Notes under the pieces: model-generated
Told to the model about the DNA's origin: nothing
The model's database searches: none
The model's input: only the letters and a program-made list of their open reading frames with translations
From: a virus
DNA: 30,159 bases
Reading direction: 5' to 3' (one strand)
IMG/VR virus record: IMGVR_UViG_3300003702_000017
Span: 8,244 to 38,402 of that record
Shown: positions 1,276-11,480 of the stretch, piece by piece
Layout: each line of letters starts with the position of its first letter
Position numbering within the stretch: position 1 is the stretch's first letter
Translations under genes and position numbers: made by a program

Positions 1276-1632
1276 ATGAAAGTTTTTGATTTATTAAATG
1301 AAGCATTAGATGATGAGTTTGGTCAATATATAGTTCGTGACGTGACTCGTCCAGACCATGAATGGTCTGCTGATACTAAAAAAGATGTTATTGATGCTAT
1401 TATGGCAAATGCTATTACAAAATGGCAGGTTATAGAAGCAGGCTCAGATGAAATACTTGCAGATTATCATCATGATTCTATTTTAAATGGTAAAATTACG
1501 CCTAAAGATAAAACATTTAATCGTATACAAGAGTTAATGTTTAATGCTGAAGATGATACACCTGATCATGCACCGTTTCCTAAAGTTAAAGTTGATATGG
1601 AAGTGGTTGATCCGGATCTTGACTTGGAATAA
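1276..1632 (+). CDS. Small late protein with capsid-targeting-like N-terminus
   Basis: A 118-residue acidic protein beginning MKVFDLLNEALDD. The MK..x.L..EA pattern resembles the capsid-targeting sequence of T4 internal head proteins (MKTYQEFIAEA type), which the prohead protease cleaves after (L/I)xE; here the candidate cut would be after LNE at residue 9. The body holds no recognisable domain. HAPFPK near residue 99 repeats HAPFYK of the gene ending at 599, and 13 identical bases underlie the two motifs. A perfect late promoter sits 5 nt before the start codon. The 3' end overlaps the convergent minus-strand gene by 47 bases. A packaged internal head protein is an inference. Confidence 0.65.
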   Translation: MKVFDLLNEALDDEFGQYIVRDVTRPDHEWSADTKKDVIDAIMANAITKWQVIEAGSDEILADYHHDSILNGKITPKDKTFNRIQELMFNAEDDTPDHAPFPKVKVDMEVVDPDLDLE

Positions 1633-2548
1633 TACCATATTCCATATACAATAATGCGTGTCGCATAGGCACTGGTCTAATAATATTTCCATCTTCATCA
1701 AGTGATCTAGCTGTATGTATTGCTTTACTATATGTTAAGTTGCATTTTTCTATTATTGTATCATAATGTTTTTCATATTTACGCCACCAAAAGTCAGTAC
1801 CAAAGTGTTGCATAAATTCTAAACCTATCCATACTTCAGCTATACTAATAAATTTAAAATCATTCATAAGTTTTATAGGTCCATTTTCTCGTTTTCTTGA
1901 ATAACGTAATCCTATACGATGTACATTCATACCAAATGCTTTACTTAATGAAAAAGTTATTGTTTTAATAGCAGGATGATCTACATTAAAGTTAATATTT
2001 CTACAGCAAGGATACCATGCCGCATCAATATGTACAGGTATGTCTAATAGTAAACATCGTTCTAAAATTTCTGGCAGTTCAGGATGGATGTCATTATCGT
2101 AGAATGTAAATGGTGTTGCTATAATTAATACATCTCCAATGTGCAGTGTTTCTACAGTTCGTGTAAAGATATCAGGAAATAATCTATTATGATAAGGATA
2201 GTCTCCATCAAACACAACTATTTTTTTGTTATGCATCATATGAAGTTCATCAAGTTGATTTGTTACGCCAGCACAAATGTCTTTGTCTGGAAATGCCTCT
2301 AATCCAATAAATGAAATTAGTTTATGATTACAAATCCAATTATGCATTTTTTCTTTAAATTGTTCTGTTATTATATTATAATCTTCAGTATCTCTTATTG
2401 TAATAGTTTTATAATTATCAAATCGCATTGTATTATGTAAAGAATTGTGAAATTTATGTACCTCTTTATCAAACATTGGTCGTTTGCGAGATCCTGGTTT
2501 TCTATCTATTAAACTGTTTAATATTTTTATATCTGGTGTAAATGTCAT
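1586..2548 (-). CDS. Fold-type-I PLP-dependent aminotransferase-like enzyme
   Basis: The 320-residue protein follows the class I/II aminotransferase plan. A GVTNQLDEL helix (about residues 94-102) is followed by a strand ending in a D-Y-P-Y turn (about 114-119). A nucleotide-like strand precedes HIDAAWY (residues 173-179), where D175 is the expected pyridine-N partner and Y179 the expected O3' partner. SLSKAFG (residues 200-206) supplies the PLP lysine K203, and R211 follows in the usual SLSK..G..R..G context. The substrate cannot be read from sequence; the length is a little short for the family. It is the last gene of a minus-strand run behind two radical SAM genes, 12 nt after the previous stop. 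Base composition matches the surrounding AT-rich phage DNA, so no recent transfer is evident. No Shine-Dalgarno is visible. Confidence 0.75.
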   Translation of the reverse strand: MTFTPDIKILNSLIDRKPGSRKRPMFDKEVHKFHNSLHNTMRFDNYKTITIRDTEDYNIITEQFKEKMHNWICNHKLISFIGLEAFPDKDICAGVTNQLDELHMMHNKKIVVFDGDYPYHNRLFPDIFTRTVETLHIGDVLIIATPFTFYDNDIHPELPEILERCLLLDIPVHIDAAWYPCCRNINFNVDHPAIKTITFSLSKAFGMNVHRIGLRYSRKRENGPIKLMNDFKFISIAEVWIGLEFMQHFGTDFWWRKYEKHYDTIIEKCNLTYSKAIHTARSLDEDGNIIRPVPMRHALLYMEYGIIPSQDPDQPLPYQL

Positions 2549-2560
2549 TTGTTTTTCTGT

Positions 2561-3988
2561 TTAGGTTGCACGAATTTCTTTTAATTGTTGTTTTAAATAT
2601 GTAACTGTTTTAGCATTAAACGCATAATTAAGATTTTGTAAATGATTATGTAATCGTATATATCTATCAATACGTATTTCCATATTGTTATTTTCAGTAT
2701 GCCAGTGTCCATTATTATCCCATTCAATGTTCCATAAATGACGATCATCATTTAATGGTGCTCCTTCGACAAGATCGCATGGCGGACCGAGAATAACTTT
2801 AACTAGTCCCTTGTCACTTAATGGTTTTATTTCTGTAAAAAAATTATAAGTTTCAAGAAAGTCATCTTCTGTTTCTGTAGGATATCCAATCATCATTAGC
2901 ATTGATATTTTAATATCGTTTTTGTCGCATTGTTCTAATGTATAATATAAATCTTTATTAGTAAAATATTTTTTCATATCTCGTCTTACTTTGTATGATA
3001 CACTTTCAACACCTATTGCTAAATCTAAAAATCCTGCTTTAGCAATATCTTTATATATCTCAGGTGGTAGTTGAGTCTCAGGCCTGCAAATATATTGTGT
3101 ATGACAATGAAAAGGTTTTATATTGTTTGTTTCATAATATGTTATTAGTTCTTTTAATAGGTCATTAAATTGTTTTACATTACCGTTTATTAAGCTATCT
3201 GTAAAGTAAAAATTTCGAATATCATATAATTCGTATTGTGTTGACATTTCGTTAGCAATAGATTTTGGACTTCTATATCTAAATTTAGGCCATTGATAAC
3301 CTATATCGCAAAATGTACATCGTCTAACACATCCACGAGAACCAGTAATATAAAGTATATCAGCACCAAGATCATCTCGTATAGAGGGATCTTTATAATT
3401 TTTTGAATAAATTGAAAAATCGTAATCAGAATAATCAGGAATAGGAACAGAATCTAAATCATTTATTTGAGGTGCCCAGCCATTGATACCAGGATGCTCA
3501 TCTCCTTTTAATAAAGCAAGCATTGCTTCTTCTCCTTCGCCTTTAATAAAAACATCGCATTTTTCTTGTTTTAAAAATCTGTCACCACAATAGTTTGTAT
3601 ATGGGCCTCCTAAAACAATTTTAATTTTTGTATTATGATTTTTAAGTTCGGTACATATTTTTTCACATATGTATAACGAACGTTGTGAAAATAATGACAT
3701 GCCAAACCATGTAGGATTTTCTTTTATAATATATTGTACCCATTCTTTAACATGTGGTTCCATTAATGGATATGATTTATTAAATTGTTCTCGTTGCCTA
3801 AATGTTGTATTAGTGTCAATCCACCATCCAGAATTTTCTGGTCCTACTTTTTCCCATAAATCAATATTCCAATCTACTAAATGACAAGAAAAATTATTTT
3901 GTTGTAACACAGATTTTAAAATCGCAGGGCCAGTAATGGGAGACCGAGTATGTAATCTAGGTAATGTTGCTATAATGCAATCAATCAT
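2561..3988 (-). CDS. Radical SAM protein with cobalamin-binding-like N-terminal domain
   Basis: Residues 1-165 look like the Rossmann-type domain that precedes many radical SAM cores: a DCIIATLPR strand, a VDWNIDLW turn, a KIVLGGPY strand and a GEGEEA segment. The B12-ligating D.H..G motif is not present, so cobalamin binding is doubtful. The radical SAM core follows, with C220, C224 and C227 in GSRGCVRRCTFCDIG for the 4Fe-4S cluster. Further family marks are AIGVES and MMIGYPTE, the latter typical of B12-domain radical SAM and MiaB-like proteins. The reaction is unknown. The start overlaps the end of the upstream twitch radical SAM gene by 8 nt, indicating one operon and coupled translation. 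Confidence 0.85.
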   Translation of the reverse strand: MIDCIIATLPRLHTRSPITGPAILKSVLQQNNFSCHLVDWNIDLWEKVGPENSGWWIDTNTTFRQREQFNKSYPLMEPHVKEWVQYIIKENPTWFGMSLFSQRSLYICEKICTELKNHNTKIKIVLGGPYTNYCGDRFLKQEKCDVFIKGEGEEAMLALLKGDEHPGINGWAPQINDLDSVPIPDYSDYDFSIYSKNYKDPSIRDDLGADILYITGSRGCVRRCTFCDIGYQWPKFRYRSPKSIANEMSTQYELYDIRNFYFTDSLINGNVKQFNDLLKELITYYETNNIKPFHCHTQYICRPETQLPPEIYKDIAKAGFLDLAIGVESVSYKVRRDMKKYFTNKDLYYTLEQCDKNDIKISMLMMIGYPTETEDDFLETYNFFTEIKPLSDKGLVKVILGPPCDLVEGAPLNDDRHLWNIEWDNNGHWHTENNNMEIRIDRYIRLHNHLQNLNYAFNAKTVTYLKQQLKEIRAT

Positions 3989-5216
3989 TGTTTTCTTCTG
4001 TGTATGTATTAATTATATCTGCGATATATTTATGTTCGTCTTGTATATTAAATTTGCGAACAGTATTCATCCAATTGGTAAATTCTATAAATGATTCATA
4101 ACGATTATACGAATCATCATCTTTGTTTATTACTAGAAATGCACTATCTATATTAAAAATTATATTTTTTATGCTTTGTAATTCGATTGAAGGAATAATA
4201 AATGCACTTTTTTGAATTTCTTCTATTATTGTTTTAAATATTGTGTTTTGATGTTGGTTCAATAATAAGTTAGCACACAGGTATGGTTGTATTGCAGGAT
4301 AGATGCTTATATTATTTTGACTAAAAATATTGTTTTGATATTTTGAAAAGTAATTAATAGTATCTATTATATTTCCAACATTGTATATGCTTAAAACAAA
4401 GTTAATTCCAAGTACAGAAATACTTGGATGGTTTAATAATAGTTGAAAGTTTTTGTCTATGTTACTAAAGTTTGTTCCTCGGATCCATTCATATGTTTTA
4501 CCTATGCCATCAATGCTGGCAAAAATTTCTATATCTTTTAGTTTGCTAAATGTTTCAAGAGTTTTTTTGGTTATTGTTGTAATGTTGCTAACCATTCTTA
4601 TTTTTAGAGTTGGTTTAACATTACTAATTTTATCTAGAAATGTTAAGCAGTTTTTATCGTATAATGGTTCTCCACCTTTAATAATTAATAGTTCTAAGTC
4701 GTTTATATTGTCTAAAATTGATTCAAGTACTTCTTTTTGTAGAACAACTGGCTTGAATTGATTATAGTCATAGTGTGTTTTTAATGCATTGAGTGCTTTT
4801 TGCGGCATAGATTTTTCTTGTTGATGCCAATGTGAACTATGAATGCTGTTACACATAACACATCCTAAATTACATTGATTGCTAAAACTAATATCAAGAT
4901 ATTTAATTTTTGGTGTAAGATCTTCTGGTAATCGCTTTCGAGACATTGCATATTTAATTCGTTTACTTTCAAGATTGTGTTGTTCTCTACTATAACAATA
5001 TTTGCAAGCATTAATATATTCATCGTTAAGCATCTTTTCTCTAATCTCTTTTATACGCTCACCATAGAATATGTTTTCTATTGTAGTAGTCGATTCTGTA
5101 AAGTCGTGTAGACTGTGGTCTGCCTCATCAGACCAAACAGGGCATAATTGAGCATGACCTCGTGGGTCAATTGTAATACCATCAAAGGGTATATAACAGA
5201 AATGTTTCTTATTCAT
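3981..5216 (-). CDS. Twitch-type radical SAM protein
   Basis: I place the start at the ATG at 5216 (MNKKHFCYIPFDG), because the longer frame to 5282 adds a low-complexity segment that would run through the promoter region. From this start the protein has 411 residues. The N-terminal auxiliary cluster domain has C7, C25, C71 and C74 (CKYC), arranged as in twitch/SPASM-like proteins but placed ahead of the core. The radical SAM cluster residues are C115, C119 and C122 (QCNLGCVMC), followed by a KGGEPLYD strand that contacts SAM. Such proteins modify peptides, sugars or small molecules; the substrate is not deducible. It is the first gene of the three-gene cassette and diverges from gp32 across about 130 bases. 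Confidence 0.85.
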   Translation of the reverse strand: MNKKHFCYIPFDGITIDPRGHAQLCPVWSDEADHSLHDFTESTTTIENIFYGERIKEIREKMLNDEYINACKYCYSREQHNLESKRIKYAMSRKRLPEDLTPKIKYLDISFSNQCNLGCVMCNSIHSSHWHQQEKSMPQKALNALKTHYDYNQFKPVVLQKEVLESILDNINDLELLIIKGGEPLYDKNCLTFLDKISNVKPTLKIRMVSNITTITKKTLETFSKLKDIEIFASIDGIGKTYEWIRGTNFSNIDKNFQLLLNHPSISVLGINFVLSIYNVGNIIDTINYFSKYQNNIFSQNNISIYPAIQPYLCANLLLNQHQNTIFKTIIEEIQKSAFIIPSIELQSIKNIIFNIDSAFLVINKDDDSYNRYESFIEFTNWMNTVRKFNIQDEHKYIADIINTYTEENND

Positions 5217-5267: not shown

Positions 5268-5296
5268 TTGACAATTGTACACATAGGCATTATAAT
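5268..5296 (+). promoter_or_regulatory. Sigma70-like promoter of gp32
   Basis: TTGACA (5268-5273), a 17-nt spacer and TATAAT (5291-5296). The expected start near 5303 gives a leader of about 46 nt ending in an AAAGGAG ribosome binding site. On the other strand TTGTCA overlaps the same -35 region and could serve the divergent radical SAM genes, but that reading is weaker. Confidence 0.8.
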
Positions 5297-5348: not shown

Positions 5349-6311
5349 ATGGCTACATTGGCAGAATTAAGGGCAAAACTCGCGGCACAAGACCAGCGCC
5401 AAGCTGGATCTCGCGAAACAGATAACGCAATTTATACGTTTTGGAATATTCCTAACGATACTACAGCAACATTGCGATTCTTACCAGACGCAGAACAGAG
5501 TAATACATTCTTTTGGCAAGAACGACAAATGATTCGGATGCCTTTTCCGGGTATAAAAGGACAAGACGAAGCAAAAGCAGTTACGGTAAATGTACCGTGT
5601 ACTGAGATGTGGGGAGAAACTTGTCCAGTACATGCTGAAATTCGACCGTGGTTTAAAGATCCGACACTTGAAGATATTGCACGTAAATATTGGAAAAAGC
5701 GTTCATATATTTTCCAAGGACTTGTTATAAATGATCCGCTCGGTGAAGAATCACCGCCAGAAAATCCAATTCGTCGGTTTGTTATCAATCCGTCGATATA
5801 TAAGATTATTAAAGCAGCTTTGATGGATCCTGATATGGAAAATCTACCAACAGATTATGTTAATGGTACTGATTTCCGTCTTACTAAAACACAGAAAGGT
5901 CAGTATGCTGATTATTCAACATCAAATTGGGCACGACGTGAGCGTGGTTTATCAGAGGATGAACTTGAAGCAGTAGAAACCAATGGGTTGTATACTTTAA
6001 GTGATTATCTTCCAAAGAAACCATCCGCTGATGGTGTAAAGATAATTTACGAAATAGCATCAGTTGATGGCGAATTGTATGATCCTGATAAATGGAGCGA
6101 TTGGTATAGGCCGTTTGGTGTTTCGGCATCCTCAACAAGTACTTCAGTTTCAACAGAGGGTACTGTATCAGCTAAACCTGCAAGTGTTCCTATTGAAACA
6201 GAGGTTGTGAAAACAACAACTGATGATACTTCTACCAATTCTGGTAGTGCAGATGCTCAAGATATACTTGCAATGATTCGAGATCGTGCAAAAGCAAAAG
6301 ATACTGCTTAA
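5349..6311 (+). CDS. 32: gp32-like single-stranded DNA-binding protein
   Basis: T4 gp32 coats ssDNA and organises replication, recombination and repair. The N-terminus (LAELRAKLAAQ) is the short basic helix used for cooperative self-association. The OB-fold core follows, with a zinc-type CTEMWGETCPVH motif (C84, C92, H95) and the marker PWFKDPTLEDIARKYWKKR. T4 uses one His and three Cys at the equivalent site, so one ligand here is uncertain. Residues 250-295 form a Ser/Thr-rich linker to a short charged C-terminal tail that would bind partner proteins. Length is near T4 gp32 (301 aa). A strong promoter and AAAGGAG precede it, a hairpin follows, and UvsX comes next, as expected for a middle-expressed recombination block. 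Codons are more G+C-rich than in most neighbours, consistent with high expression. Confidence 0.93.
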   Translation: MATLAELRAKLAAQDQRQAGSRETDNAIYTFWNIPNDTTATLRFLPDAEQSNTFFWQERQMIRMPFPGIKGQDEAKAVTVNVPCTEMWGETCPVHAEIRPWFKDPTLEDIARKYWKKRSYIFQGLVINDPLGEESPPENPIRRFVINPSIYKIIKAALMDPDMENLPTDYVNGTDFRLTKTQKGQYADYSTSNWARRERGLSEDELEAVETNGLYTLSDYLPKKPSADGVKIIYEIASVDGELYDPDKWSDWYRPFGVSASSTSTSVSTEGTVSAKPASVPIETEVVKTTTDDTSTNSGSADAQDILAMIRDRAKAKDTA

Positions 6312-6363: not shown

Positions 6364-7440
6364 ATGGTAAAACCATATGACTTTTCAAAATTAAGAAAAA
6401 GTTTAACAAAAAATATTGATGGATTAAGTTTAGGATTTCATGATCCTAAAGATTGGATTAGTACTGGCAGTTATGCATTGAATTATCTTATTAGTGGAGA
6501 TTTTTATAAAGGTGTCCCATTAGGACGAGTAACGATGTTTGCAGGAATGTCAGGAAGTGGTAAGAGTTTAATTGCAAGTGGTAATCTAGCAAGCAACGCT
6601 CAGAAAGCTGGGTGTTTTGTTGTTATGATGGATAGTGAAAATGCATTAGATACCGATTGGTTACAGGCACTTGGTGTAGATACAAGTGAAGAAAAATTAT
6701 TAAAAATTGGTGTTTCAATGATAGATGATGTTGCTAAAACATTATCAGAATTCCTTAAAGGATATAGGGAAGAAAATGAAGAAACTGATTATGAGGATTG
6801 TCCAAAAGTAGTCATTATTATTGATAGTTTAGGTATGTTGTTATCGCCTACAGATGTTAAACAATTTGAGGCCGGCGATTTAAAAGGTGATTTAGGACGT
6901 AAACCTAAAGCACTTACAGCATTGATTCGTAATACTGTTAATAGTATTGCTCCTTATCCAATAGGACTTATAGTGACCAATCACACTTATGCATCGCAGG
7001 ATATGTTTGATCCTGATGATAAAATTAGTGGCGGTGCAGGATTTGTGTATGCTTCATCTATTGTAGTTGCTATGAGGCTTCTGAAGTTAAAAGAAGACGA
7101 AGAAGGTAATAAAATTACACAAGTTCGAGGTATTAGAGCTGCGTGTAAAGTTATGAAAAGTAGGTTTTCAAAACCATTTGAAGCAGTTCAAATTAAAATA
7201 CCATACGAATCTGGTATGGATGCGTACTCGGGTTTAGTAGATTTGTTTGAAAAATCTGGTGACTTTGTTAAGAAAGGCAATAAATTAGTTTATATTGATT
7301 CAGCTGGTAATGAACATAGTTATTTTAGGAAAGGATGGAATGCCGAAACACTCGAACTGGTCCTTCAAGATAAGGTAAATGATGAAGTATTTTCATCAAT
7401 AAATGAAGAATTAGTATCAGAAGAAATAATAGAAGATTAG
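6364..7440 (+). CDS. uvsX: UvsX RecA-like recombinase
   Basis: UvsX is the T4 strand-exchange ATPase; it forms filaments on ssDNA with UvsY and gp32 and drives recombination-dependent replication. The 358-residue protein has Walker A GMSGSGKS (residues 61-68), a MMDSENALD strand (about 88-96) holding the catalytic acidic residue, Walker B VVIIID (149-154), and a LIVTNHTY strand near residues 202-209, followed by a D-D-K-ISGGAGFVYASS loop. The C-terminus is acidic, as in T4 UvsX. Length is close to T4 UvsX (about 390 aa). GGAG lies upstream of the start. It follows gp32 in the same direction and is followed by the small acidic gene and the probable UvsY. Confidence 0.95.
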   Translation: MVKPYDFSKLRKSLTKNIDGLSLGFHDPKDWISTGSYALNYLISGDFYKGVPLGRVTMFAGMSGSGKSLIASGNLASNAQKAGCFVVMMDSENALDTDWLQALGVDTSEEKLLKIGVSMIDDVAKTLSEFLKGYREENEETDYEDCPKVVIIIDSLGMLLSPTDVKQFEAGDLKGDLGRKPKALTALIRNTVNSIAPYPIGLIVTNHTYASQDMFDPDDKISGGAGFVYASSIVVAMRLLKLKEDEEGNKITQVRGIRAACKVMKSRFSKPFEAVQIKIPYESGMDAYSGLVDLFEKSGDFVKKGNKLVYIDSAGNEHSYFRKGWNAETLELVLQDKVNDEVFSSINEELVSEEIIED

Positions 7441-8232: not shown

Positions 8233-8265
8233 GTATTACATGAACTATTGTAAAGGAGAATTGTA

Positions 8266-8688
8266 ATGGACATCAATTTACGTAAAGCTGCTACTTTGCA
8301 GGAACAAGTTAGACAAGCTATAAGTGATATTAGTTTAGATACCAAGAATGATGGAACCGGTCGAGTTGTTGAAGATAACTTGGTTGAACGGTTAATTCGG
8401 GTAGAAGAATTAGAATCTGTGTTGTATAGTCTACGTGACAAAGTTGGCAAAGCAAATGTTGAAACAGGTGTTAGTACATTATTAACAAAACGGGTACAAC
8501 TTAATAATTTAATTAGTCGATATGAAAAATTAGTTCGCAACGGACATGAAAGTTTTAAAGTAAAGTTGTCAGATTTCCGTCGTGAGCGTGTTAAGATTAG
8601 CGAAAGTATTCTTGAATTAAATGTTGGATCTAGTGTTAATGTAGCTGATGCTGATGTTGAAATTTTAAATAATGAAAACATCATATGA
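8266..8688 (+). CDS. Helical/coiled-coil protein, weakly DIP1984-like
   Basis: A 140-residue protein made mainly of long helices. A LQEQVRQ segment near the start, an ELESVLYSLRDKVGKAN segment in the middle and LLTKRVQLNNLISRYEKL afterwards give the order helix, N-x-x-T turn, helix seen in DIP1984/septicolysin-like small proteins. The match is by pattern only. It has its own strong promoter and a good Shine-Dalgarno, and its codons are slightly more G+C-rich than average here, so it is probably well expressed in the early or middle period. No enzymatic motif is seen. Confidence 0.7.
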   Translation: MDINLRKAATLQEQVRQAISDISLDTKNDGTGRVVEDNLVERLIRVEELESVLYSLRDKVGKANVETGVSTLLTKRVQLNNLISRYEKLVRNGHESFKVKLSDFRRERVKISESILELNVGSSVNVADADVEILNNENII

Positions 8689-8689
8689 C

Positions 8690-8697
8690 AATAAATA
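8690..8697 (+). promoter_or_regulatory. Late promoter AATAAATA upstream of a candidate ncRNA
   Basis: One mismatch from TATAAATA. Its predicted +1 (8703) is the first paired base of an 11-bp RNA stem, and no ORF longer than three codons follows before the terminator at 8810. Confidence 0.6.
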
Positions 8698-8702
8698 TAT
8701 AT

Positions 8703-8840
8703 AGTTAAGCATTGTATATGTACATAAGATAATAAGAATAACATAATACTTGCTGATTGTATTAGATTAAAAGTTATATTGGTAAAGAGGAAATGCTTAA
8801 CTAATTGATGAAAGGGTGCCGATCGGCACCCTTTCTTTTT
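8703..8840 (+). ncRNA. Candidate late-expressed structured non-coding RNA
   Basis: A transcript of about 138 nt would start at 8703 and end at the T-tract at 8836-8840. Its first 11 bases (AGTTAAGCATT, 8703-8713) pair with 8792-8802 (AATGCTTAACT). Inside, TAATAC (8744-8749) pairs with GTATTA (8759-8764) around a 9-nt loop, extended by ATAAC (8738-8742) with GTTAT (8773-8777) across an asymmetric bulge. An AGAGG lies just before an ATG at 8793 that opens a three-codon frame (Met-Leu-Asn-stop) within the closing stem. No real ORF fits. The terminator hairpin completes the unit. A leader or 3' UTR remnant is the alternative. Confidence 0.5.
8810..8840 (+). terminator. Intrinsic terminator
   Basis: An 11-bp perfect stem (GAAAGGGTGCC, 8810-8820, with 8825-8835), GATC loop and five T's. 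Confidence 0.9.
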
Positions 8841-8844
8841 AACG

Positions 8845-8875
8845 TTGACAAATCTCCAATTTTTGTTATTATAAT
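8845..8875 (+). promoter_or_regulatory. Sigma70-like promoter with the ATCTCCAA element
   Basis: TTGACA (8845-8850), then ATCTCCAA directly downstream, and TATAAT (8870-8875) after a long 19-nt spacer. AATCTCC (8851-8857) and GGAGATT (8881-8887) form an inverted repeat around the -10. The predicted start near 8882 makes the GGAG at 8881-8884 nearly the first bases of the message. The same element occurs at 10005 and 10363. Confidence 0.7.
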
Positions 8876-8890
8876 TGTATGGAGATTATA

Positions 8891-9100
8891 ATGAAAAATA
8901 ATAAATCAGATGAAATAGTATCAGAATGTGTTAAAGCAATTAGTGGTATAGCAGATAGGAATAATATAAATATTGTTGATGAGGATTTTATCAAAGACAT
9001 AGCATTGTCGGCAAAATTTTTAAATGCCGCATTTACTCGTCAATTAGGTCAATCAAATATATTACATGAGCATATGTCAAAGATAATGAATTCTATATGA
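8891..9100 (+). CDS. Small hypothetical protein
   Basis: I use the ATG at 8891 (MKNNKSDEIV), because transcription should begin near 8882, after the in-frame ATG at 8879; GGAG then sits 6 nt upstream. The 69-residue product is helical and charged with no recognised domain. Its TGA is directly followed by the ATG of the dioxygenase-like gene, so the two are probably co-transcribed from the promoter at 8845. Confidence 0.6.
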   Translation: MKNNKSDEIVSECVKAISGIADRNNINIVDEDFIKDIALSAKFLNAAFTRQLGQSNILHEHMSKIMNSI

Positions 9101-9922
9101 ATGATTAACAGCGAGATTCTCCAGCAGTATGTTGACGACGGTGCAACCGTAGTTCGAGGTTGTCTCAGTGAAGAATGGTTAGACCTATTGCGGATGGCTG
9201 TTGAACGTGATATTGAGAACCCTGGTCCAATGGTTCTCGATTATATTGAGGGGAATCAATCTGTACCAGGTGCCGGCCGCTTTCACGGTAATCTTCGTAT
9301 TTGGGAAACCGACGACACCTTTCGGGATTTTTGTTTGAATTCTCCACTGCCAGAGCTAGCGGCCGAATTTCTCAGTTCGAAAAAAATTAATCTTTTTTAT
9401 GATCAGTTGTTTGTCAAGGAGCCGGGTATGCTCAATAGAACACGTTGGCATAATGACCATCCCTACTGGCCTATACGAGGCTGGCAGGTTTTGAGCTTCT
9501 GGGTTGCACTGGATCCTGTAAATGCAAGAAATGGTGTTCTTGAATTTATACGTGGTTCACATCGCTGGGGCCGATGGTTTCGACCAGATCTGACATATGA
9601 CCATGAACGTAATCCTAATTATGAGATTATTCCAGATATTGAGGCAAACCGCGATCAGTACGAGATTATGAGCTGGGAGTTGTCGCCAGGCGATGTTTAT
9701 GTGTTTCATGCGTTGACGGTGCATGGTGCTGGTGGAAATGAGAGCAGTGATGTTCGTCGCCGAGGTTATACAGTGCGCTATACAGGTGATGATGTGGTTT
9801 ATGATACTCGTCTTGGAACTAATAAGAGATTATGCTCTGATATACATAAAGATGGCGACCCGCTTGATAGTGAACGTTATCCAGTGGTCTGGCCCCTTGT
9901 ATTTAAGGATTTGCTAATATAA
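9101..9922 (+). CDS. Phytanoyl-CoA dioxygenase (PhyH)-like Fe(II)/2-oxoglutarate oxygenase
   Basis: The 273-residue protein has the double-stranded beta-helix signature of PhyH enzymes: iron ligands H117 and D119 (RWHNDH) and distal H208 (VHGAGGN), with the 2-oxoglutarate-binding basic residue expected in RRGYTVRY (about 219-227). SFWVALDPVNARNGVLEFI is the usual core strand pair between them. These enzymes hydroxylate small molecules using O2 and 2-oxoglutarate; the substrate here cannot be read. Base composition and codon choice are clearly richer in G+C than neighbouring genes, and a 16-bp tandem duplication spans the stop codon, both consistent with fairly recent acquisition. No Shine-Dalgarno is seen; the start directly follows the upstream stop, so coupling is likely. 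An auxiliary metabolic gene is the best description. Confidence 0.88.
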   Translation: MINSEILQQYVDDGATVVRGCLSEEWLDLLRMAVERDIENPGPMVLDYIEGNQSVPGAGRFHGNLRIWETDDTFRDFCLNSPLPELAAEFLSSKKINLFYDQLFVKEPGMLNRTRWHNDHPYWPIRGWQVLSFWVALDPVNARNGVLEFIRGSHRWGRWFRPDLTYDHERNPNYEIIPDIEANRDQYEIMSWELSPGDVYVFHALTVHGAGGNESSDVRRRGYTVRYTGDDVVYDTRLGTNKRLCSDIHKDGDPLDSERYPVVWPLVFKDLLI

Positions 9923-9936
9923 GGATTTGCTAATAT
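9905..9936 (+). repeat. 16-bp perfect tandem duplication at the end of the PhyH-like gene
   Basis: Bases 9905-9920 (AAGGATTTGCTAATAT) are repeated at once at 9921-9936. The first copy encodes the last residues; the stop codon falls at the junction. Confidence 0.95.
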
Positions 9937-9997
9937 ATACCCTTAAAATCCACACTAAAATAGTGGTATTATTGTTGTAAAAAACCCACACTTTTTC

Positions 9998-10020
9998 GTT
10001 AAGATTGACAGATCTCCAAC
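9998..10020 (+). repeat. 23-bp promoter repeat, copy 1
   Basis: Identical over 23 bp to 10356-10378. It contains the -35 hexamer TTGACA and the following ATCTCCAAC. Confidence 0.95.
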
Positions 10021-10032
10021 TTATGCTATAAT
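10005..10032 (+). promoter_or_regulatory. Sigma70-like promoter with the ATCTCCAA element
   Basis: TTGACA (10005-10010), 16-nt spacer, TATAAT (10027-10032); predicted start near 10039. It drives the two tiny membrane proteins at 10059 and 10217. The stretch between the PhyH stop and this promoter has two similar AT-rich segments around CCACAC but nothing else I can name. Confidence 0.8.
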
Positions 10033-10058
10033 ATATGTATAATAAAAGAGTGAGAGAA

Positions 10059-10220
10059 ATGAAAGAAATCAAAAAAGTAGAAAATCGTAAAATTGGCATA
10101 TTGCCAAAAGTAGCGGCAACAGCGGCTGTAGCGTATGGTGCTTATAAATTAGGATACCACTTAACAGCCAAAAAAGGTACGCGACGTGAATGGCATCGTA
10201 AATCAGGTGAAACTGTATGA
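10059..10220 (+). CDS. Small membrane protein with YGAYKL/KKGTRR module
   Basis: The start is set at the ATG at 10059 (MKEIKK): the in-frame ATG at 10035 lies upstream of the expected transcription start, and GTGAGAG sits just before 10059. The 53-residue product has one hydrophobic helix (about residues 13-31, ILPKVAATAAVAYGAYKL) followed by a basic tail HLTAKKGTRREWHRK. The same module closes the late structural protein at 21130 (YGAYKLAHHLTSKKGTRRDWH), with 18 identical bases at DNA level. A role in membrane anchoring is plausible but unproven. The stop overlaps the next start (ATGA). Confidence 0.7.
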   Translation: MKEIKKVENRKIGILPKVAATAAVAYGAYKLGYHLTAKKGTRREWHRKSGETV

Positions 10221-10360
10221 TTGAACTTTTATTATTTTTAATCTTGTTGGTTTTGGTAGTTAAGTGTCTACCAGGATTAGCGAGTTTTTTGGTTAGCACT
10301 GTTATAGTACTTTGTGCTCTTATTGGTGCAATCGTTTTATATTTCGCAATTGCTAGTTAA
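10217..10360 (+). CDS. Tiny two-helix membrane protein
   Basis: A 47-residue ORF whose ATG overlaps the preceding TGA. Nearly the whole product is hydrophobic: one helix at residues 2-15 (IELLLFLILLVLVV), a KCLPG turn, and a second helix at about 22-46 ending in LYFAIAS. It could be a phage membrane effector or a minimal holin-like protein; no family is recognised. Its stop codon lies inside the second copy of the 23-bp promoter repeat. The ATGA overlap and clean hydrophobic profile argue that it is real despite its size. Confidence 0.6.
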   Translation: MIELLLFLILLVLVVKCLPGLASFLVSTVIVLCALIGAIVLYFAIAS

Positions 10361-10378
10361 GATTGACAGATCTCCAAC
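10356..10378 (+). repeat. 23-bp promoter repeat, copy 2
   Basis: Perfect copy of 9998-10020, placed ahead of the AAA ATPase gene and overlapping the stop codon of the 47-residue ORF. Confidence 0.95.
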
Positions 10379-10390
10379 CTGTAGTATAAT
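10363..10390 (+). promoter_or_regulatory. Sigma70-like promoter with the ATCTCCAA element
   Basis: TTGACA (10363-10368), 16-nt spacer, TATAAT (10385-10390). The leader to the ATG at 10434 carries an ACGAGG ribosome binding site. Confidence 0.8.
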
Positions 10391-10433
10391 GTATATAATG
10401 TTAATTTTAGATTAATAACCCACGAGGTAATCT

Positions 10434-11480
10434 ATGTCCGCTCAGAAGTTAGTAAAGATTAATGGGTCCTATCGGAATACGCCTGTTCCAGGTGTTGTAT
10501 TTCCGTTAGTCAAGGCCCTAACAAAAGGTAAGAAAGGTGACTTTGTTACCGTAGATGGAACAACAGTTTCTGGATACCCAGATCGTCATCTTCGTATTAA
10601 GGTGGCAAGTAAGTCAGATTATGAATTTGTCAAATCTGACACTCCTGTGGGATTACCAGAGAATGCTCCCAAGACAGTAGAAACCGATGAAGAAGCAATT
10701 GCGCGAATACGCGATCGGTTTTCAATTCTTGACGAAATGACCGAAGCTACTATTGAGGGCACGGTGCGAGGCATGATTGTCTCAGGCCCTCCAGGCGTTG
10801 GTAAGTCGTATGGTGTAGAAACTGTATTAGAGCGATCTAATACTTTTAATAAACTTGCCGGTAAGAAATGCAAGTATGAGATTGTTAGAGGTGCTATGAC
10901 AGCATTGGGCCTGTATGCTTTACTTTTTAAGTGGAGCGACCCCGGCAAAGTATTAGTGCTCGATGATTGTGATACAGTTCTTTGGGACGAACTTTCGCTG
11001 AACCTTCTTAAAGGTGCACTGGACTCCAGTAAACATCGGCGGCTTTTTTGGAATGCTGATAGTCATAAATTGCGTGGCGAGGGTATTCCAGATCAATATG
11101 AATTTAATGGCTCGATCATCTTTATATCGAACTTGAAATTTGATCAGATAACGAAGAGTGGTCGGATTGGTAAAATTAAGGATCACTTGGAAGCAATTAT
11201 TTCCAGATGTCACTATTTGGATCTGACACTGGATACAATGCGCGACAAGATGCTCCGTATACATCAGATTGTTGGCGATGGTATGTTGAATGAATATAAG
11301 TTCAACAGTGACGAGACAAAGATGATTGTTGATTACATTGACGAGCATAAAGAAAAGTTGCGTGAAGTGAGTTTGCGTATGGTGCTAAAGATTTCAGACT
11401 TGTACAAGATGGCACCCAAGAACGATCACTGGAAGAGACTTGCCGAGACAACTTGTATGCATCGAGAGGTATTAGTATAG
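10434..11480 (+). CDS. AAA-family ATPase
   Basis: The 348-residue protein has an N-terminal region of about 85 residues without a recognised motif, then a single AAA module: Walker A GPPGVGKS (118-125), Walker B VLVLDDCD (173-180), a sensor-1-like FISN (230-233) and a small helical lid toward the end. It does not read as the T4 clamp-loader gp44 or helicase Dda; the long WDELSLNLLKGALDSSK stretch after Walker B suggests a remodelling or loader ATPase. It has its own promoter and a strong terminator, so it is a one-gene unit. Codons are more G+C-rich than in uvsW and uvsX, suggesting high early expression or a different origin. The client is unknown. Confidence 0.85.
   Translation: MSAQKLVKINGSYRNTPVPGVVFPLVKALTKGKKGDFVTVDGTTVSGYPDRHLRIKVASKSDYEFVKSDTPVGLPENAPKTVETDEEAIARIRDRFSILDEMTEATIEGTVRGMIVSGPPGVGKSYGVETVLERSNTFNKLAGKKCKYEIVRGAMTALGLYALLFKWSDPGKVLVLDDCDTVLWDELSLNLLKGALDSSKHRRLFWNADSHKLRGEGIPDQYEFNGSIIFISNLKFDQITKSGRIGKIKDHLEAIISRCHYLDLTLDTMRDKMLRIHQIVGDGMLNEYKFNSDETKMIVDYIDEHKEKLREVSLRMVLKISDLYKMAPKNDHWKRLAETTCMHREVLV

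Follow-up and report, generated by a model that had tools for sequence, protein, structure and literature searches.

PLP-dependent and radical SAM (rSAM) enzymes hypermodify DNA bases in some phages, and in 2-deoxystreptamine biosynthesis the rSAM enzyme BtrN acts on an aminocyclitol. The rSAM gene sets of marine phages have previously been noticed in the open-licence literature without a function. In the accessible portions of two such papers, rSAM cassettes vary between pelagimyophage host-recognition clusters (PMC7029224), and a T4-like marine phage genome carries 12 rSAM genes (PMC5332604). Here we analyzed a stretch of 30,159 nucleotides of viral DNA (IMG/VR record IMGVR_UViG_3300003702_000017, positions 8,244 to 38,402; hereafter the window), which holds two rSAM genes and the gene of a PLP enzyme next to gp32. 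The source of the window is probably a large T4-like marine phage, since the nearest isolates by its uvsX sequence are the jumbo phages Phosso, XaC1 and Atu_ph07 (61–64%).

Layout and borders of the cassette

The initial annotation, made from the letters of the window, had described a minus-strand run of three genes lying between gp32 and late genes that run the other way. All three genes are intact on the minus strand (Table 1); the two rSAM genes overlap by 8 bp, and a 12-bp gap separates the B12-binding-domain rSAM (B12-rSAM) gene from the PLP gene. The gp32 flank and the opposite orientation of the neighbors also held, as the genes on either side of the cassette are on the plus strand, but the late genes did not: the right flank consists of gp32, uvsX and replication genes (helicases, primase). 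On the left, the 3' ends of orf1276 and the PLP gene overlap (1586–1632). On the right, the cassette ends at the gp32 promoter, and a comparable promoter is present in sibling phages in which the site is empty. The GC content of the cassette genes is 0.28–0.30, compared with an average of 0.34 over 13 other genes.

Table 1 Features of the cassette and its flanks (positions in the window)
Feature	Position	Strand	Basis
orf1276, left flank marker	1276–1632	+	next gene upstream of gp32 in siblings with an empty site
Compact fold-type-I PLP enzyme	1586–2548	−	AlphaFold model, fold matches, residue conservation
PLP enzyme, Arg211	about 1916–1918	−	model and conservation
PLP enzyme, Lys203	about 1940–1942	−	model and conservation
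PLP enzyme, Asp175	about 2024–2026	−	model and conservation
B12-binding-domain radical SAM protein	2561–3988	−	PF02310 and PF04055
B12-rSAM cluster cysteines C220/C224/C227	about 3308–3331	−	
Twitch radical SAM protein (N_Twi_rSAM)	3981–5216	−	NF033640 score
Twitch rSAM cluster cysteines C115/C119/C122 (CxxxCxxC)	about 4851–4874	−	
Sigma-70-type promoter upstream of gp32	5268–5296	+	12/12 consensus positions
gp32 single-strand DNA-binding protein, right flank marker	5349–6311	+	phrog_1192 E 1.5e-59, PF08804
uvsX	6364–7440	+	

The best start of the twitch rSAM gene is the ATG at 5216, with the stop at 3981. A longer form beginning at a GTG (5282) was rejected because its frame would extend across the gp32 promoter, a perfect sigma-70-type consensus. 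Separately, the left-flank proteins (1276–1632, 596–1267 and 3–599) have short motifs in common, namely an N-terminal MKVFDLLNEA and RIKHLAGI or RLKQLAGI with LLEA, which by eye resemble T4-type capsid-targeting or internal-protein sequences.

Two radical SAM proteins and a compact PLP enzyme

The twitch rSAM protein scored 231.7 bits against the NF033640 (N_Twi_rSAM) model, above the cut-off of 170. In addition to the three cysteines of the SAM cluster, it has four N-terminal cysteines for the auxiliary cluster (C7, C25, C71 and C74). All seven, which are the cysteines expected of NF033640 members, are invariant across 43 diverse relatives, and each of these relatives matches the model, confirming the initial assignment as a twitch rSAM. 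A search of the PDB with the single sequence returned no match. With the family profile, the twitch part aligns to the cluster cysteines of BtrN (Cys169/187/232/235), with E-values that are weak both by itself (0.009) and within the whole profile (3e-7); the profile also matches SkfB and CteA-type maturases and, weakly, many peptide-maturase models.

The second rSAM protein had been annotated with a Rossmann-like front domain. This domain scored 47.2 bits against PF02310 (gathering score 32.1) and is therefore of the B12-binding type, and the rSAM domain scored 70.3 bits against PF04055 (gathering score 29.5), placing the protein in the class of B12-binding-domain rSAMs. Its predicted structure (pLDDT 83) is nearest to AprD4 (Z 24.2), a dehydratase that acts on paromamine, and to OxsB (Z 23.7). 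The protein fell under the cut-off of every named subfamily, including TIGR03975 (95.8 vs 281.85), TIGR04479 (84.7 vs 600) and the AprD4 model NF033070 (17.5 bits vs 500). Its best NCBIfam score, also under the cut-off, was to a model of RiPP C-methyltransferases.

This score and the maturase matches of the twitch profile raise the question of whether the substrate is a ribosomal peptide, or else a protein of the virion or host, with the enzymes acting like SPASM/twitch peptide maturases; rSAMs with twitch or SPASM domains often act on peptides. We consider such a substrate quite unlikely. No small ORF that could be a RiPP precursor peptide is conserved within 9 kb across the loci of the PLP gene, and the neighbors of the cassette site persist where the cassette is absent.

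Neither Pfam nor PHROG has a family that matches the PLP protein. A profile of its family found valine-pyruvate aminotransferase (E 9e-4), while the protein scored 15.8 bits against the valine-pyruvate transaminase model (cut-off 402) and thus lies outside the curated Pfam and NCBIfam aminotransferases (Aminotran_1_2). The AlphaFold model built from a 61-sequence alignment (pLDDT 90.5) has an aminotransferase/C-S-lyase fold, which Foldseek and VIA-align place in fold type I. C-S lyases, OvoB, ACC synthase, MppP and aminotransferases are tied near Z 18–19 as its closest relatives, and NifS is also among the nearest. In the family alignment, Asp175 and Lys203 are invariant and 59 of 61 sequences retain Arg211, so that the fold, the Schiff-base lysine, the aspartate for the pyridine nitrogen and the phosphate arginine of a fold-type-I enzyme are all present, in agreement with the initial annotation of a fold-type-I enzyme with its lysine kept. 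The protein should bind PLP. However, Trp178 is located where Tyr225 is usual, and the asparagine of the NPTG motif is lost in the alignment to valine-pyruvate aminotransferase; plain transamination is therefore not assured.

The PLP enzyme might instead be a sulfur donor or a C-S lyase that feeds rSAM or PP-loop partners in a thiolation, as suggested by NifS, C-S lyases and OvoB among its nearest folds and by a PP-loop gene less than 100 bp from the PLP gene in 15 of 58 dereplicated loci. We regard this role as very improbable: plain aminotransferases equal C-S lyases by Z, and the window cassette has no PP-loop gene.

Co-occurrence, mobility and phage islands

A profile search of viral contigs with the PLP family yielded 119 relatives, of which 80 were kept. 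N_Twi-type rSAMs accompany the family in 78 of 82 loci; the four others are phage Mosig, L015 and the short contigs L048 and L082. Neither gene was found in any of 61 control gp32 phage loci (551 kb), which are more distant gp32 relatives and not size-matched islands. The co-occurrence of twitch rSAM and PLP genes thus exceeds chance. Of the three-family association proposed initially, this pair stood, while the B12-rSAM is absent from the sibling cassettes at the gp32 site; at the family level, however, the three do meet, since B12-rSAMs of the window type (31–37% identical) occur alongside PLP and twitch genes in the islands of other phages (L020, L026, L028, L029, L032, L042 and L043/L044). 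These relatives came through the PLP neighborhoods; a search of viral contigs with the single B12-rSAM sequence found none, as its exact 8-mers were too strict. The conserved unit at the window locus is therefore the twitch rSAM and the PLP enzyme, whose ligand residues are kept across diverse relatives, with the B12-rSAM gene as an addition. The two B12-rSAM junctions show short similarity, a hint of microhomology in sequence too AT-rich to count.

The site between orf1276 and gp32 holds the twitch rSAM and PLP genes in five siblings (L093, L094, L097, L099 and L101) and is empty in L104–L110, where orf1276 ends 151–177 bp before gp32; the nearest sibling contig, L092, stops inside the twitch gene. 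Furthermore, the window uvsX is nearest to that of L010 (dN 0.026), whereas the window PLP gene is nearest to those of L008, L002 and L009 (dN 0.10–0.12, compared with 0.28 for L010), indicating that the cassette moves apart from the core genome. The dN/dS ratios of the twitch gene (0.09–0.22 among siblings) and the PLP gene (0.13–0.34) are similar to those of gp32 and uvsX. These sequence comparisons show the pair to be a mobile module, exchanged between phages and kept by purifying selection.

The position beside replication genes, together with the precedent of other phages, would suit hypermodification of the phage DNA bases. Adjacency to gp32 is confined to the small clade of the window, however, and other phages carry the module elsewhere, so we consider this function improbable. 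A search for the 5-hmdU DNA kinase (HMUDK) found it in none of 18 carrier records, which are possibly fragments, and the controls were equally silent.

We also asked how tightly the two partners are matched. One fixed twitch rSAM orthologue as the constant partner of the PLP enzyme was rejected: orthologue labels changed 21 times on the tree, compared with 36 when shuffled, and were uniform only in the clade of the window. The distance matrices of the PLP enzyme and its nearest twitch rSAM correlate (0.49; none of 2000 permutations was as high), which shared phage ancestry could explain.

In some large relatives the PLP gene lies in larger islands, whose records contain up to 19 twitch rSAM matches, some of them partial or under the cut-off. 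The PLP gene itself is present once in each of 16 profiled island records and twice in a few loci. Its island neighbors include other rSAMs, 2OG oxygenases (among them an Asp/Arg hydroxylase), a PP-loop ATPase, a nitroreductase and methyltransferases, and further companions are an amidinotransferase, an AMP-binding enzyme and a protein of the saccharopine-dehydrogenase type. Glycosyltransferases were absent among the matches listed (25 of 50 matched families, from 91 phage-island companion proteins).

Several features of the islands deserve mention in their own right. Those of L005/L052, L020, L026 and L027 are very dense in rSAM genes, with as many as 19 N_Twi matches over 66 kb, and also encode 2OG oxygenases in tandem and kinase-like proteins that match no Pfam family. 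The phage-borne amidinotransferase (L040, 14313–15524) recurs near PLP islands and is related to enzymes of the HsvA, SxtG and StrB1 type. Another recurring protein resembles the core of class-II aminoacyl-tRNA synthetases and is EpmA-like by eye (L107, 12586–13416; L110, 11321–12154; L011, 3533–4423).

The PLP family looks virus-restricted in the sequences searched. When 84,980 genomes were scanned with a strict pattern, the single relative found was on a phage-like contig in a metagenome-assembled genome, and a profile search of 398 genomes of the same phylum recovered that contig and three marginal matches. Among isolated-phage records, phage Mosig has the sole relative (26%), near genes for a DegT-type aminotransferase, a carbamoyltransferase and tail fibres; queries with two other family members gave none.

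Proposed function and comparison with known systems

In cellular genomes, the NF033640 cut-off was exceeded in 3 of 398, 2 of 385 and 1 of 78 genomes (overlapping samples). All three cellular loci examined are sugar or surface-polysaccharide clusters with no close relative of the PLP enzyme. L182 encodes RmlC, RmlD, WbsX, an ABC-2 permease and methyltransferases; L183 an epimerase and GT2; and L188 enzymes of the GT2, GT8 and GT41 types, an epimerase, methyltransferases and a B12-type rSAM. In L182, a single ORF of 854 residues (8579–11143) fuses an ABC ATPase with a Wzt C-terminal domain to a twitch rSAM; Wzt is the ATPase of an O-antigen exporter.

The small rSAM and PLP pathway suggested by the initial annotation is favored by the conserved ligands, the co-occurrence, the purifying selection and the mobility of the cassette. 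Our tentative proposal, held with less than even confidence, is a tailoring module in which rSAM chemistry precedes PLP chemistry and the substrate is most likely of the sugar type, with the product, the order of steps and the benefit inferred. A sugar-type substrate is our best guess because of the cellular twitch loci, the relatives acting on aminosugars or aminocyclitols, and the host-recognition cassettes described in the available part of PMC7029224; the first and last of these also lend indirect support to the surface sugar that had been listed initially as one option. The Mosig relative of the PLP enzyme, with its neighboring aminotransferase, carbamoyltransferase and tail-fibre genes, points the same way as the best guess. 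The SAM cluster of the twitch rSAM would generate a 5'-deoxyadenosyl radical, and the enzyme, with its auxiliary cluster taking up an electron, would oxidize or rearrange a carbon that is not activated, in a molecule of the sugar or aminocyclitol type. At the new carbonyl, the PLP enzyme would then catalyze amination or elimination, following the logic of BtrN and its PLP aminotransferase. In the window phage, the B12-family rSAM may add a third step, for example C-methylation or dehydration. The product would most likely decorate a host-envelope glycan or another surface molecule of host or virion during infection, which is the least certain step.

Against a sugar stand the missing glycosyltransferases among the island companion families listed, the breadth of the fold ties of both the PLP and B12-rSAM models, and the two replaced residues of the PLP enzyme noted above; moreover, the argument relies on three cellular loci, none of which has a close PLP relative. 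The 2OG oxygenases, PP-loop and amidinotransferase genes suit amino-acid chemistry equally. Together with the nitroreductase, the AMP-binding and saccharopine-dehydrogenase-type companions, and the amino acids on which fold relatives of the PLP enzyme act, they would fit a cassette that serves not a glycan but the synthesis or alteration of a free, amino-acid-like small molecule, such as a natural product, a cofactor or a metabolite directed at the host or at competitors. We consider this product possible but unlikely: the cellular N_Twi genes are located in polysaccharide loci, and two genes, being too few for a complete pathway, would need a precursor from the host. Returning to the sugar-type substrate, a broader idea that we hold with more doubt than the tailoring proposal is that the virus-specific PLP family may anchor large rSAM islands building glycan- or aminocyclitol-type molecules unknown from cells, of which the window cassette would be the minimal form. 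A virus-restricted and usually single-copy PLP gene beside rSAMs provides a handle for finding and testing such a pathway; the version with two genes is compact enough to be expressed. Should the outcome be an altered surface glycan, phages would have a new route to changing host or virion surfaces.

The locus can be compared with known systems as follows. First, like the phages of PMC7029224 and PMC5332604, it belongs to the variable rSAM gene sets of marine T4-like phages; the accessible text of those papers names no PLP family, twitch rSAM/PLP module or function, and the window site adjoins gp32. Second, the twitch protein exceeds the curated cut-off of NF033640 with all cluster cysteines kept, but is paired with a PLP gene that the model does not name. 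Third, the window enzyme shares fold type I and the Lys/Asp/Arg PLP ligands with valine-pyruvate aminotransferase and the PatB/MalY-type C-S lyases, although its family is only ~10% identical, is compact (280–320 residues), lacks a Pfam aminotransferase match and differs in the NPTG asparagine and at the Tyr225 position. Fourth, the B12-rSAM resembles AprD4, OxsB, MgmA, CysS and TsrM over its whole length (Z 24.2 to 21.3), but with 17–21% identity or less and with cobalamin binding only predicted. At last, BtrN and its PLP aminotransferase offer a works-like analogy, an rSAM with a four-cysteine twitch cluster beside a PLP enzyme, in which the twitch is C-terminal rather than N-terminal as in the window protein and the specific alignment is limited to the twitch part.
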